From Edaphobacter aggregans DSM 19364 (GTDB lineage Bacteria > Acidobacteriota > Terriglobia > Terriglobales > Acidobacteriaceae): a DNA stretch of 64,000 nucleotides. Position numbers and translations under genes: made by a program. The stretch covers positions 434,087 through 498,086 of the forward strand of contig NZ_JQKI01000001.1 of NCBI RefSeq assembly GCF_000745965.1. Reading direction: 5' to 3'. The notes beneath the pieces are model-generated. The model searched no databases. It worked only from the letters and a program-made list of their open reading frames with translations, and was not told the origin of the DNA. Positions 6,104-10,749 of this stretch are shown one piece after another. Numbering within the stretch: position 1 is the stretch's first letter; every line of letters starts with the position of its first letter.

Positions 6104-6706
6104 CTAGCGGATGGCTGCCATTGCGGCGCGGAAGAGGGTCTCGAAGTCTCCGGCTGCGGAGGGGTTCTTGTCGATCGCGGTCTCGATGGCCTTCTGGGCG
6201 ACGGGGCGGGGGTAGCCGAGGTTGACGAGTGCGGAGAGGGCGTCGTCGGCGGCGGGGCCGTGATGTCGCCCGCCGGCTGCGCCGGCGAGTTCCGGGACGG
6301 CCATATCGTCGAGCTTGTCCTTGAGCTCGAGGACGACGCGCTCGGCGGTCTTCTTGCCGATGCCGGGGATTCTGGTGAGGGTGGCGTGGTCGCCACCGCG
6401 AATGGCGGCGACGAGGCGGTCGGACGAGATGCCGCTGAGGACGGTGATGGCAAGCTTGGGGCCGATGCCGGAGATGGTGAGGAGGCGCTCGAAGAGGCGC
6501 TTCTCCTGGGGGGCGGCGAAGCCGAAGAGGGCGATCTGGTCCTCGCGGACGTGGGTGTGGATGTGGAGCGTGGCTTCGGCGTTCTCGGCGGGGAGTTCGG
6601 AGAAGGTGGCGACGGAGATGGCCACGTCGTAGCCGACGCCGCTGCATTCGACGATGGCCTGGTTGGGGGACTTCGAGAGGAGGCGGCCGCGCAGGTGAGC
6701 GATCAT
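6104..6706 (-). CDS. ruvA: Holliday junction branch migration protein RuvA
   Basis: 200 residues, the usual length. MIAHLRGRL begins the N-terminal OB fold. Two helix-hairpin-helix motifs follow, LLTISGIGPKLAITVL near 71-86 and LTRIPGIGKKTAERVVLEL near 105-123. A flexible Gly/Ala-rich linker leads to the C-terminal three-helix domain (ALSALVNLGYPRPVAQKAIE) that contacts RuvB. RuvA tetramers bind four-way junctions and load the RuvB motor. Neither ruvB nor ruvC is adjacent, so the gene is separated from its usual partners here. Confidence 0.97.
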   Translation of the reverse strand: MIAHLRGRLLSKSPNQAIVECSGVGYDVAISVATFSELPAENAEATLHIHTHVREDQIALFGFAAPQEKRLFERLLTISGIGPKLAITVLSGISSDRLVAAIRGGDHATLTRIPGIGKKTAERVVLELKDKLDDMAVPELAGAAGGRHHGPAADDALSALVNLGYPRPVAQKAIETAIDKNPSAAGDFETLFRAAMAAIR

Positions 6707-6850
6707 GCTCTGGCGATTGTAAATCGCGATGCGATCAGCGGAGTGGAGGCGAAGAGGGAGTCATCGTGGAGGAAGGCCGTTTATTGCATTTCAGCATTGG
6801 AGGCGGGCGATGCGGGAGTAAACTGCGACGCATCGCCCGGCTACCAATGC

Positions 6851-8266
6851 TTAAGCCGTCCTGCTCGGAGGCGGCGGAGGCACTGCGGGTTGCGGTGAGG
6901 TGCTCGCTCCAGGAAGAGCGCTGTACCAGTCGATTGCGCGGGTGAAGTACATGACGGCTGCGAGTGCCAGGAAGCTTGCGACCGCCCCGACGAGCAGCGC
7001 GTTGTCCTCGAGCCGCAACAACATATAGATGAGCCCGTAGAGTAGAGTGAAGACGAAGAAGGCGCGTAAGCCCTGCAGCCGGCTGGAGAAGACCCATGCG
7101 GCATTGGTCGAGAGCAGAGTGACCGTGGCCGCGCCTGCGAGGAGGAAGCCGAGGCCGAACCCGATTCTCTCCACCAGGGAGAGAAGGAGCAGATAGAAGA
7201 TGATCTGCGCGATTCCCACGAGGATGTACTGTGCAGGGTGAACACGCTTGCCGGTCGTGGCCTCGAAGACGAAGTAAGTGAGGAAGACGAGGCCGAGGAA
7301 GAGGAGTACGTATTTGAGCGAGCGGCTGACGGACTGATAGGGGTCAGCGACCTCGATGAAGGAGACTCCGAGCGCAGTTGTGTTGAGCCCGGCAAAGGAG
7401 TCGGCAGGACCTTCGGCTCGGATACCGCGGGCGATAAAGGGCACGGTCCAATCTGCGCTGTAACCGTTGTTGTAGATGGTGCGGCTGGTGGGGAGGATTC
7501 CGCCTCCGAAGCCCGGACTGCGCCAGTCGCCCCGTGCAGTGAGACGCGTTGTCTTGCCGTAGGCGAGCACGGCGATGCGCTCCGCTCCGGAGAACCGGAG
7601 TGTGGATGTAGCGTGGAAGGCCGCATCCGGTCTGGCGATGTCGCCGACCTTCGCTCCGAACAGGACCAGCTTCTCCTGATGGTTCTCGTCTCCACCGATG
7701 ACGAGGTTCTGGGCCAACTGAGCCGGTACGAGGGTCGAGGTCCTGTTGTCCGTCGCCAGTGTGGCGTCGGACAATGCACCGCGCGGATCGCTTACGCCAA
7801 CGACGATCTCTGCCTGGCCCCAGTCAAGTTCCGCACCAAGTGGTGCTGCAGCAGGCACTCCCTTGAGGTCGAAGGCGGCATCGAGTTTCAGATCGGCCTG
7901 GAATACCGGTACGCGAAAGAGCGAGCGGCGACGTTCTTCGGTCGTGGTCTTCACAACAGCGGAGGCCTGTGCGGGCGAGACCAGATAGATGCCTCGCCTC
8001 GCGAACTCGGAGGGCGTGCGTGGTGGAACGGTGTAAGGGATGGCGAGAGTCGGACCGAGGAACGTCTGCGGGCCGCCGACGTGGCTGCTTATCTCTTTGG
8101 TGACCTCGGCGGCGCTATGGGTTCTGTCGCTTACAAGTTCGGTGACGAAGAACGACGGGATAACCATGAACATGGCCAGCACGCAGACGACGATAAGCTT
8201 GACGCCCATGGACCTCGGCTTAATTTGTTCCTGCAGGTTCGATGGCAGTATCGATGAGTGATTCAC
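6851..8266 (-). CDS. creD: CreD-family inner membrane protein
   Basis: 471 residues with one N-terminal membrane segment (VKLIVVCVLAMFMVIPSFFV, about 23-43), a long extracytoplasmic domain, and a cluster of membrane segments from about 310 to 450. The PQTFLGPTLAIPYTVPP block, the SADWTVPFIARGI region and the VLLFLGLVFLTYFVFE helix are typical of CreD. Start is GTG at 8266 with AAGGAAAG upstream. CreD in Enterobacteriaceae belongs to the CreBC regulon and its biochemical role is poorly defined. Here it is the last gene of a unit with a winged-helix regulator and a small membrane protein, and a palindrome at 8293-8309 lies just upstream of its ribosome site. No CreBC genes are seen. Confidence 0.88.
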   Translation of the reverse strand: MNHSSILPSNLQEQIKPRSMGVKLIVVCVLAMFMVIPSFFVTELVSDRTHSAAEVTKEISSHVGGPQTFLGPTLAIPYTVPPRTPSEFARRGIYLVSPAQASAVVKTTTEERRRSLFRVPVFQADLKLDAAFDLKGVPAAAPLGAELDWGQAEIVVGVSDPRGALSDATLATDNRTSTLVPAQLAQNLVIGGDENHQEKLVLFGAKVGDIARPDAAFHATSTLRFSGAERIAVLAYGKTTRLTARGDWRSPGFGGGILPTSRTIYNNGYSADWTVPFIARGIRAEGPADSFAGLNTTALGVSFIEVADPYQSVSRSLKYVLLFLGLVFLTYFVFEATTGKRVHPAQYILVGIAQIIFYLLLLSLVERIGFGLGFLLAGAATVTLLSTNAAWVFSSRLQGLRAFFVFTLLYGLIYMLLRLEDNALLVGAVASFLALAAVMYFTRAIDWYSALPGASTSPQPAVPPPPPSRTA

Positions 8267-8292
8267 CAGGCTTTCCTTTCGTGAAGCAGATT

Positions 8293-8309
8293 ACTTTGCA
8301 TTGCAAAGT
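8293..8309. promoter_or_regulatory. 17-bp palindrome, candidate operator upstream of creD
   Basis: ACTTTGCA-T-TGCAAAGT is a perfect 8+8 inverted repeat around one central base, in the 61-bp gap between the regulator stop codon and the creD start. Read in the other orientation it matches the site at 9337-9353 at 16 of 17 positions. It is likely the binding site of the regulator encoded between the two sites. Confidence 0.7.
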
Positions 8310-8327
8310 TAGTGGCCAAAAAAATAT

Positions 8328-8723
8328 TCATACCCTCGAAGGTGTGAGGCGGCGAGTGAGTGGTGATGCGGGTTCGTCTTCCACCTGCTTCGCGGCATCG
8401 CGGATTACCTGTTCGAGCGTAGAGAGGTACTCGAGGTAGCGTTTGCGCCCTGAGGATGTGATTCGGCAGACCGTCTGCGGACGGTTGCGGTCGTGTCCTT
8501 TCACGATTTCGACGAGCGTTCCTTTTTCGAGGACGTCGAGATGCCGGCTCAGGTTGCCGTCGGTGAGTGCGCATAGCTGCTTGAGGTCGTTGAAGGTCAG
8601 TCCCCTGGGATTGGTGACCAGAGAGGTTAGGATGCTGAGGCGCGCGCGTTCATGAATGACGCGGTCGAGCCCCTCGTAGGCAAAGCGGCCTTCAGTGGAT
8701 GAGGGCTTAGGCTTAGGCTTCAT
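8328..8723 (-). CDS. Winged-helix transcriptional regulator of the CreD unit
   Basis: 131 residues. After a short basic tail (MKPKPKP) comes a compact winged helix: LDRVIHERARLSILTSLVTN, LTFNDLKQLCALTDGNLSRH (recognition region) and LDVLEKGTLVEIVKG with the wing near NRPQTVCRITSSGRKRYLEY. This fits the MarR/ArsR-like one-domain regulators that often pair with small membrane proteins. The start at 8723 overlaps the end of the preceding membrane-protein gene by 11 bp, a coupled arrangement; the longer upstream reading is out of character and only mirrors that gene. Autoregulation through the palindromes at 8293 and 9337 is inferred. Confidence 0.85.
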   Translation of the reverse strand: MKPKPKPSSTEGRFAYEGLDRVIHERARLSILTSLVTNPRGLTFNDLKQLCALTDGNLSRHLDVLEKGTLVEIVKGHDRNRPQTVCRITSSGRKRYLEYLSTLEQVIRDAAKQVEDEPASPLTRRLTPSRV

Positions 8724-9327
8724 CGGGTGCCTCCAGCGTAGAGAAGAGCAGGATCGCAGCGACGAGCAGCTGGCCCACTCCATAGGGAACCCCCATGGCC
8801 CAGGGAGAGAGAGCACGCGGTCCGCCGATCGCGATGCAGGCGAGGCCGGTGAGCAGATACCAGGTGCCGGCCGCAATCATGGGCCGGGGTAAGAAGCGGC
8901 ACGACGAGAAGATTCCCAGGCTGAAGACGATCTGCCACATTCCGGGAAGCATCCACGCGCTGTGAGGAACGTAGTGCGTGAGTACGAGGGTAAGGAGCAG
9001 TCCGGCGCCGAGCGATGGCAGGAACTGCTCGACGGCCATGCGGATCATCTCATCGGAGAGGGCTGAGTGAATACGCCGCGAGCGTGTGAACATCTGCGCG
9101 CCAGTCAAGGCGCAGCACAAGGCTGCGGTCGAGATCCAGATGACGAGATATGCGGAACGATGACTGGCCGCGTCCGACACAAAGCGCTGCTGAACGAACG
9201 CGGCGAGAACGGCGAAGGCACTCGTGGTGGCGAGGGTTGCGGGGCCGTAGCCGCGGAACTCCGTGGCGCTTGCCATCTGCTTGCGAATGCAGTTGATGTC
9301 GCCGAGCGCTCTGTAGAGTTCGTTCAT
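8713..9327 (-). CDS. Small integral membrane protein, unknown function
   Basis: 204 residues with about six predicted membrane segments, for example ATLATTSAFAVLAAFV, LVIWISTAALCCALTGA, GLLLTLVLTHYV, WQIVFSLGIFSSC, YLLTGLACIAIGG and GQLLVAAILLFS. No enzymatic motif is seen. It is the first gene of a three-gene unit with the winged-helix regulator (11-bp overlap) and creD. The palindrome at 9337-9353 lies 9 bp before its start codon, where it could cover the promoter or the ribosome site. No clear Shine-Dalgarno sequence is present, so the palindrome may itself shape translation. Similar membrane protein/regulator pairs act as local stress or envelope sensors, which is only a suggestion here. 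Confidence 0.8.
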   Translation of the reverse strand: MNELYRALGDINCIRKQMASATEFRGYGPATLATTSAFAVLAAFVQQRFVSDAASHRSAYLVIWISTAALCCALTGAQMFTRSRRIHSALSDEMIRMAVEQFLPSLGAGLLLTLVLTHYVPHSAWMLPGMWQIVFSLGIFSSCRFLPRPMIAAGTWYLLTGLACIAIGGPRALSPWAMGVPYGVGQLLVAAILLFSTLEAPDEA

Positions 9328-9336
9328 GGACGAGTC

Positions 9337-9353
9337 ACTTTACAATGCAAAGT
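9337..9353. promoter_or_regulatory. 17-bp palindrome, candidate operator of the regulator unit
   Basis: ACTTTACA-A-TGCAAAGT is an inverted repeat with one mismatched pair. It equals the reverse complement of the 8293-8309 site except at one base. Its place immediately upstream of the first gene of the unit fits autorepression. Confidence 0.7.
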
Positions 9354-9582
9354 ATAGGGAGAGGGGGCGCTTGTCAACAGCGAAAAGGCGCTCTGTTTCT
9401 ATTGGACTCCGCGCGGCTCGGTGGGTCGGCTTTACTTATTTTTGACAAAGAGGCTGTGACCTTTCGTTACGCCGCGGCCTCAAACGGCTGGGCGAACTCG
9501 ATGACCGTCGACGATGACCCACCGGTCCTTTGGACGCGGCCGCCCCTTCGTGCGACTCTGCACCTCCCTAAGGAGTAGCTCT

Positions 9583-10749
9583 ATGAAGAACCGATTTAGA
9601 CGTCCTCTGATCCTCTCGATGGCTGTTCTGGGAATCAGTGCCTTCACGCCGAACAACTCCTCTGCGCAGTCTGCCGATCTGACATCTGGCCAGTCGGCAA
9701 ATCGCAGCAGCGGAGCTGTCTTCATCATGACGAACGACGCGGACAAGAATGAGGTGATCGCCTTCGACCGCGCCGCGAACGGATCTCTCACCGAAGCCAA
9801 TCGTTATAATACCGGCGGCCGCGGCAGCGGAGGCACGACCGATCCGCTGGAGTCGCAGGGCTCGTTGACGTTCAGCCAGGACCACTCGCTCTTGTTTGTG
9901 GCCAATGCGGGCAGCGGAACGGTCTCGGTCTTCAAGGTGCTGCGCTCGAATCTTGCTCTGATTGAGAAGGCTCCTTCGGGCGGAAGCCAGCCGGTTGCGG
10001 TGGCGCAGTTCAATAATCTCGTCTACGTGCTGAACTCGGGCGGATCGGGAAGCCTGGTCGGATTTCATCTCGGCTTCGGCGGACAGCTTCAGCAGATCAA
10101 GAACTCGACGGCTTTCTTGTCGGGCAACGCGACCGGCGGAGCTTCGCTTGCGTTCAGCCCGGACGGGCAGTTTCTGCTCGTGACGGAGCGGGTCGCTAAC
10201 ACGATCGATGCCTTTCGGGTTCAGCCGGATGGGACGCTGGGGCCGATCGTATTGAACGCCAACCCGGCGCCGGGGACCTTCTCGCTGGCGTTTGCTCCGA
10301 ACGGGAAGGCCGTCGTGTCGGAGACTGGCCCTGCGGGCGGCTCGAACGCTTCGGCGACCTCTTCTTACAGCGTCGGTGCGGATGGCAAGCTGACGGCGGT
10401 GAGCCAGAGCGTTCCGGCGTTTGGGAACGGCAACTGCTGGAATGCGATTACGCCGGACGGTACGCGGGTGTACACGTCGAACTCGGCCAGCAGTTCGATC
10501 TCGGGATACAACATCGCGAAGGATGGAACGCTGACTCCGATCGGCGCGACAGTGGTGGGCAACAATCCTCCTGGCAGCATCAATCTGGACATCGCGGTCA
10601 CGGCGGACGGCAGATACCTCTACTCGATTGACTCGGGGAGTGGAAACGTGGGCATCTTCCGCATCGAGCAGGATGGAACGCTGACCAACCTCGGCCAGGC
10701 GGGCGATCTTCCGAAGTCGGTCGGGTTCAACGGCATCGCTGCGATCTAG
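9583..10749 (+). CDS. Secreted seven-bladed beta-propeller, lactonase family
   Basis: 388 residues. Start chosen at 9583 because AAGGAG lies 9 bases upstream; the peptide begins with a basic stretch and a hydrophobic core (RPLILSMAVLGISAFTP) ending near SSAQS. The mature part has repeated blades with the pattern SLTFSQDHSLLFVANAGSGT, SLAFSPDGQFLLVTERVANT and NAITPDGTRVYTSNSASSSI, typical of the lactonase/6-phosphogluconolactonase-like propeller (PF10282). Being secreted, it is unlikely to serve the pentose phosphate pathway; substrate unknown. A strong terminator follows at 10780-10819. Confidence 0.85.
   Translation: MKNRFRRPLILSMAVLGISAFTPNNSSAQSADLTSGQSANRSSGAVFIMTNDADKNEVIAFDRAANGSLTEANRYNTGGRGSGGTTDPLESQGSLTFSQDHSLLFVANAGSGTVSVFKVLRSNLALIEKAPSGGSQPVAVAQFNNLVYVLNSGGSGSLVGFHLGFGGQLQQIKNSTAFLSGNATGGASLAFSPDGQFLLVTERVANTIDAFRVQPDGTLGPIVLNANPAPGTFSLAFAPNGKAVVSETGPAGGSNASATSSYSVGADGKLTAVSQSVPAFGNGNCWNAITPDGTRVYTSNSASSSISGYNIAKDGTLTPIGATVVGNNPPGSINLDIAVTADGRYLYSIDSGSGNVGIFRIEQDGTLTNLGQAGDLPKSVGFNGIAAI

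Follow-up and report, generated by a model that had tools for sequence, protein, structure and literature searches.

The creD gene in the 64-kb window (the whole stretch of DNA analysed, 64,000 nucleotides) probably stands under an autoregulated one-component switch, in which a small regulator (REG) would repress creD, or elsewhere genes of polyprenyl carrier supply, through two matched palindromic operators, A and B, with a predicted membrane protein (MEM) as sensor. Comparison of related loci revealed the pair of sites and its link to REG, to MEM and to the target gene, the enzymes at the module being mostly second copies.

The unit lies on the minus strand in the order MEM, REG and a third gene, taken as the first gene after site B, which is here creD. 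MEM (8713..9327) encodes a predicted membrane protein of 204 aa, and REG (8328..8723) a winged-helix regulator of 131 aa, the start of which overlaps the end of MEM by 11 nt. A run of seven T on the same strand (8318..8324) directly follows the REG stop, ahead of site B. The proposed target, creD (6851..8266), encodes an inner membrane protein of 471 aa and belonged to the CreD family by both PF06123 (E 2.2e-109; 366.6 vs 23 bits) and NF008712 (374.1, cut-off 275). REG was a member of HTH_34 (PF13601, E 1.3e-19) with 70.5 bits against a gathering score of 27, and MEM had no match in Pfam or NCBIfam at E 0.01. The AlphaFold2 model of MEM (mean pLDDT 85.2) was all-helical, comprising six long helices besides one at the N-terminus, and had no clear PDB match in fold comparison; its hydrophobic helices suggest that it resides in the membrane. 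Open reading frames were predicted with simple scripts, and the window lies within one 613-kb contig of an 8.18-Mb assembly (345 contigs, 7.21% contamination).

The model of REG was a winged helix. At E 0.01, REG had a single sequence match in the PDB, 1ub9 (E 7.2e-8), which is PH1061 of Pyrococcus horikoshii. This entry also ranked first by fold, followed by PadR and MarR proteins; the likeness to the protein, whose deposition names it a hypothetical protein or a homologue of a regulator, is one of sequence and fold. The REG segment TDGNLSRHL was invariant in an alignment of 31 sequences (A4), as were Cys51 and Cys86, while Cys86 was missing from several REG orthologs of the family and Cys51 from a distant REG group. 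In ArsR/SmtB metalloregulators, the recognition helix carries a metal motif of the CXC type. Placement of REG in this class was rejected, with 26.1 bits for NCBIfam HTH_metalloreg against a cut-off of 55, no CXC in the recognition helix and, by eye, a single cysteine (Cys51) before TDGNLSRHL.

Site A, ACTTTACAATGCAAAGT, is located 9 nt upstream of the start codon of MEM (9337..9353) and site B, ACTTTGCATTGCAAAGT, between REG and creD (8293..8309). An earlier sequence-only reading had described a perfect 8+8 palindrome at B and a 16/17 match at A, and both proved to be real: with up to three mismatches, ACTTTGCANTGCAAAGT matched the window only at 8293-8309 (0 mismatches) and 9337-9353 (1 mismatch), against a chance expectation of 0.11, and none of 100 shuffles gave two matches. 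Across the whole 8.18-Mb assembly, A and B were the sole sites with at most one mismatch. At up to three mismatches, 20 sites were found genome-wide compared with 19 for a reversed-pattern control, indicating that the weaker matches are noise. Perfect 8+8 palindromes (spacer 0–1) numbered five in the window, compared with 2.55 on average over 20 Markov sequences; a lone palindrome of this kind is unremarkable, and the weight rests on the matched pair and its conservation. The original observation was therefore right but understated. It had also placed the regulator between the two sites, which is true of REG, but the MEM gene lies between A and B too.

Within the same family, 102 of the 300 genomes searched had REG relatives (E ≤ 1e-15), the window's own included, and the loci of 56 other orthologous copies and of 13 distant relatives were read. 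The 55 loci treated as orthologous had a REG >54% identical and a recognisable MEM, the window itself being excluded; site A was counted up to 120 nt upstream of MEM and B up to 120 nt after the REG stop, with at most three mismatches. Site A was kept in 55/55 loci and B in 53/55, with both present in 53. B was missing at this distance from L043 and L064, the latter having a two-mismatch site at 180 nt. Such a search for the palindromes beside orthologous regulators in related genomes had been proposed with the sequence-only reading, which had predicted an autoregulated system with one regulator for both sites; the retention of A and B together with REG and MEM across these loci supports both predictions. 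For 200 shuffled palindromes, the mean number of loci with a match was 0.34 (A) and 0.35 (B) out of 55, and the maximum of 55 (A) and 53 (B) evidently came from a shuffle that recreated the motif. A control region inside MEM had a site in none of the 55 loci, and information content was 1.6 bits per column within the sites vs 0.16–0.32 in the flanks. Some family loci had a further site about 36 bp past B. Among the 13 distant REG relatives, 12 had a site (≤3 mismatches) about 1.04–1.25 kb upstream of the regulator stop, the miss being L074; tblastn recognised MEM in two and gave no match in the other 11, and seven had no recognised target. The T-run between the REG stop and site B was conserved in the family, with a median longest run of 7 in acidobacterial loci vs 3 in other groups, and no significant hairpin was found ahead of it (n = 73, mean z –0.31).

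The exact pattern ACTTTGYANTRCAAAGT occurred at 57 places in 46 of the 300 family genomes, and its reversed form at none. Exact sites were found in 43/102 REG-positive vs 3/198 REG-negative genomes, kinship not being corrected for, and 59 of the 102 REG-positive genomes had no exact site. Most places (45/57) were within 1.5 kb of REG. The other 12 comprised seven upstream of a solo creD or mini-creD (G173, G161 and G286, and twice each in G242 and G158), one at a unit of MEM and UppS where REG is reduced to a fragment (G203), and four unassigned places in G096, G195, G232 (contig 137) and G298. G286, where a solo creD has the site, gave no REG match at E ≤ 1e-15. In G117, UppS is the gene at the unit, and two sites, of one and two mismatches, accompany a creD located some 250 kb from it; the first of them has TTGACA in the classical position. 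CreD itself was present in 39/50 REG-positive vs 1/30 REG-negative genomes of a hand-picked set, again uncorrected for kinship, and the one REG-negative genome with CreD (G098) had no operator site. These comparisons strongly support a link between REG, the operator and creD, and since unlinked creD genes carry the operator as well, they favour the earlier proposal of creD as a target. Where a genome with REG also has a solo creD at another locus, that gene would be repressed at its own promoter. Two solo creD genes with an upstream operator (L347 and L348) seem to be split over two open frames, through either decay or an error of assembly.

The regulon of the CreBC two-component system was considered for the creD unit and rejected. 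In a search for CreC, the best match in the window's own genome to NF008312 (PRK11100), which we take to be CreC, reached 165.7 bits, below the cut-off of 356 that 1/14 control genomes passed. The cre tag, given as TTCACN6TTCAC in PMC4689548, gave three one-mismatch matches in the 64 kb compared with 2.84 expected, none of them near creD. Without a CreC above cut-off in the genome or a cre tag near the gene, the unit appears to be independent of CreBC, as had been suggested from the sequence. Both systems would have creD as regulated output; they differ in that regulation is here proposed to act via REG at the palindromes. CreD has been used as an indicator that CreBC is active, with little published on its physiology (PMC4689548).

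Comparison also indicated that CreD is one of several interchangeable targets, which is invisible from a single genome. In the 57 family loci, the third gene belonged to the CreD family in 42 (CreD 21, divergent CreD of about 30% identity 7, mini-CreD 14) and was UppS in 15. In L052, UppS was followed by CreD with a perfect site between them. The mini-CreD proteins (L059, L060, L062-L072 and others, with solo copies in L192 and L197) were about 235–260 aa long and kept the C-terminal membrane region, most of the presumed periplasmic middle being gone; in the one scanned (L059), the best stretch covered just positions 284–428 of the CreD models, so that most of the middle part is missing. Outside the family, a scan of named-species genomes, of which the best 80 of 538 loci encoding a relative were taken, revealed relatives in Acidobacteriota, Methylobacterium/Methylorubrum, Bradyrhizobium, other alphaproteobacteria, planctomycetes and gammaproteobacterial MAGs. 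MEM and REG were adjacent in 62 of the 64 loci L122-L185 from these best 80 of 538 (exceptions L132 and L172), where the third gene was UppS (52), IspH (5), PAP2 (1), DUF4153 (1) or none (3). When these 62 were joined with loci from other searches into 73 distinct outside loci, sites with at most three mismatches to ACTTTGYANTRCAAAGT were found at A in 68, at B in 55 and at both in 54. Searches with MEM, scoring at most 7 and 12 candidates per genome, respectively, recovered it in at least 13/398 genomes of the phylum of a Bradyrhizobium and at least 44/246 of the phylum of Singulisphaera, the known positive centre being included in each. Twenty planctomycete loci (of 44) had as third gene IspH (6), UppS (3), an FAD oxidoreductase (3), a radical-SAM gene (1) or none (7), and their operators were weak (A in 13/20, B in 10/20, both in 9/20). 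Judged by these sequences, the switch occurs in several bacterial phyla.

Representative enzymes passed the cut-offs of their families (UppS of L090, NF011412 350.8 vs 334; IspH of L138, TIGR00216 219.1 vs 187.85). Genomes with UppS at the module had another UppS elsewhere in 13/14 cases, G576 having the module copy alone, and those with IspH at the module had another IspH in 7/7. The six CreD-only genomes examined, the window's own included, had one UppS each, away from the unit. Second copies in nearly all genomes examined mark the module enzymes as spares, with one exception.

The recognised enzymes share a theme, namely supply and recycling of the polyprenyl carrier. CreD can be tied to it by published observations: a CreD homologue of Burkholderia cenocepacia rose >30-fold in mutants with a presumed fouled undecaprenyl pool, the defect of which is eased by UppS overexpression (PMC12152626); colicin M, which cleaves lipid II, is a strong creD inducer in E. 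coli (PMC3599342); and deletion of creD in S. maltophilia led to envelope defects (PMC4689548). The targets would then be interchangeable answers to one need, be it CreD, as in the window, an additional copy of UppS or of IspH, or a PAP2 phosphatase. MEM adjoined REG in 56/57 family orthologs (exception L061), and this constancy beside a swapping third gene, together with the gene overlap, led us to suggest a sensor or antirepressor role for MEM: upon loss of usable polyprenyl-phosphate carrier, or a related envelope stress, MEM would take REG off the DNA and the target would be expressed. A more specific version, that the module is a dedicated polyprenyl-phosphate sensor-switch, a Gram-negative-type counterpart of SigM, and CreD itself a protein of carrier handling or recycling, is possible but on balance doubtful; if true, the same switch would sit on creD or on a second UppS, IspH or PAP2 because CreD handles the carrier.

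The binding of REG, the sign of the regulation, the role of MEM and the signal are what we infer from the arrangement of genes and sites. REG, presumably as a dimer, would bind ACTTTGCANTGCAAAGT. TTGACA was the consensus at –24 to –19 from site A in the 55 orthologous loci, and in the window a –35 hexamer TTGACA of the operon promoter (9372..9377, minus strand) is followed by a –10 region (9349..9356, minus strand) that was read by eye as TATACT (15-nt spacer) or TACTTT (17-nt spacer) and overlaps the site; a promoter scan of 6700-9700 returned no promoter-like site, both –10 readings at A being below its thresholds. REG at A would thus cover the –10 and, as this position implies, repress its own operon. 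At B it would impose a second block on the third gene. The sequence-only reading had regarded B as the operator of an independent internal creD promoter, in keeping with its position ahead of creD and with the separate ribosome site of that gene. In four cases (L192, L197, L305 and L313), a solo creD or mini-creD also has, by eye, the operator together with TTGACA, which indicates that creD can have its own REG-type promoter. Nevertheless, a TTGACA-like –35 (at least 4/6 matches at the right distance) was found at A in 67% of 55 loci and at B in 6% of 53, compared with 18% of 275 random places, and no conserved –35 column was detected upstream of B in either the orthologous family loci or the outside loci. 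An ATG inside B opened a frame of at least 60 codons in 48/73 outside loci (those from the best 80 of 538 included). The paucity of –35 elements and the open ATG speak against a standard promoter, making an internal creD promoter at B unlikely, and favour a block, in which B may halt RNA polymerase during elongation or keep ribosomes from loading. GGAG was the consensus just ahead of B in 43 outside loci, again including the best 80 of 538. In many of the loci L122-L185 (best 80 of 538), the UppS start codon apparently lies inside B, the protein beginning MQS, and one 17-bp sequence appears to act there as both operator and start region. The consensus of 60 loci outside the family (best 80 of 538) showed an extra half-site-like CTTTGC ahead of A, at –16 to –11.

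Other explanations differ from the proposed switch in the signal, the product or the regulator. Direct ligand binding is common among HTH_34 and MarR-like proteins, and REG might repress a general envelope-stress set in response to a ligand or redox cue bound by REG itself, with MEM as a further effector. The invariance of Cys51 and Cys86 in A4 and the lack of a known sensor domain of Pfam or NCBIfam in MEM would suit this. Nevertheless, Cys86 is gone from several family orthologs and Cys51 from the distant group, the recognised targets cluster in isoprenoid and lipid-carrier steps plus CreD, and MEM stays beside REG (56/57 in the family; 62/64 in L122-L185, best 80 of 538) despite the swapping third gene, which fits a partner better than an effector; this explanation therefore seems rather unlikely. 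Alternatively, the module might control a specialised isoprenoid, such as a modified polyprenol or a hopanoid-type lipid instead of the general cell-wall carrier, with the second UppS making the chain and a B12 radical-SAM protein modifying it. Such a product is conceivable because radical-SAM genes, HpnR/HpnJ-like, follow UppS in a number of loci or stand alone, and the FAD oxidoreductase in three planctomycete loci points the same way. It is made quite improbable by the family loci in which CreD comes first, since 25 of the 31 with 4 kb or more of downstream sequence had neither UppS nor a radical-SAM gene within 4.5 kb and the other six had UppS after CreD, and by PAP2 and CreD, which point to carrier recycling. 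That the palindromes belong to some other regulator, REG merely lying between them, is highly improbable, as the site tracks REG both among the family genomes (43/102 vs 3/198) and across phyla, and TDGNLSRHL is invariant in the 31 sequences of A4.

The proposed MEM-REG switch has precedents in Bacillus subtilis. SdpRI likewise combines a small autorepressor and a multi-helix membrane protein in one operon, and its membrane protein sequesters the repressor (PMC1626106), the model that we propose by analogy for MEM and REG. By sequence, the window shares with it a regulator and a multi-helix membrane gene in one unit with an operator at the promoter, the helices being modelled; it differs in the reversed order (MEM first), in the third gene with its own operator and in REG being HTH_34. 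SigM and its anti-sigma complex form a membrane-linked switch that responds to the level of the carrier lipid, and the authors of that work anticipate that similar pathways are widespread (PMC11081497); this provides a precedent for a carrier-level switch. SigM is a sigma factor acting on many genes, whereas REG would be a local repressor of one to a few operators, and the carrier-lipid signal, shown for SigM, would apply to MEM and REG by analogy. One operator, regulator and membrane partner placed on creD or on spare carrier enzymes offers a concrete hypothesis for the function of CreD, open to test in non-pathogenic laboratory strains, and names the uncharacterised MEM as candidate sensor. 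If true, this would be a new route by which bacteria guard a scarce carrier common to wall and glycan pathways.

Several loci departed from the common gene order or carried further genes. Distant REG relatives in L078, L081, L083 and L085 are followed by an undescribed membrane protein that carries a motif of the KYFCEIDCHLAYS type; the example from L083 was scanned and matched no Pfam or NCBIfam family. A B12-binding radical-SAM protein follows UppS in L050, L056, L086, L090-L093 and others, forming a cluster of 30 loci, and in the planctomycete L281 the radical-SAM protein is itself the third gene; the best NCBIfam matches of these proteins were HpnR and HpnJ, far below cut-off. The planctomycete FAD oxidoreductase matched FAD_binding_3 and Lycopene_cycl (first 330 aa of the one scanned). 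Diacylglycerol-kinase family enzymes can act on undecaprenol in some bacteria. On plasmid pAU20b of Aureimonas sp. AU20 (L335), which had no site A at up to three mismatches and a site B with one mismatch, MEM, REG, uppS, a gene for a protein of 643 aa and one of the diacylglycerol-kinase family stand in a row. In L246, a MEM with an operator-like site and no REG beside it is directly followed by PAP2, and the same genome holds a second MEM with REG (L247).
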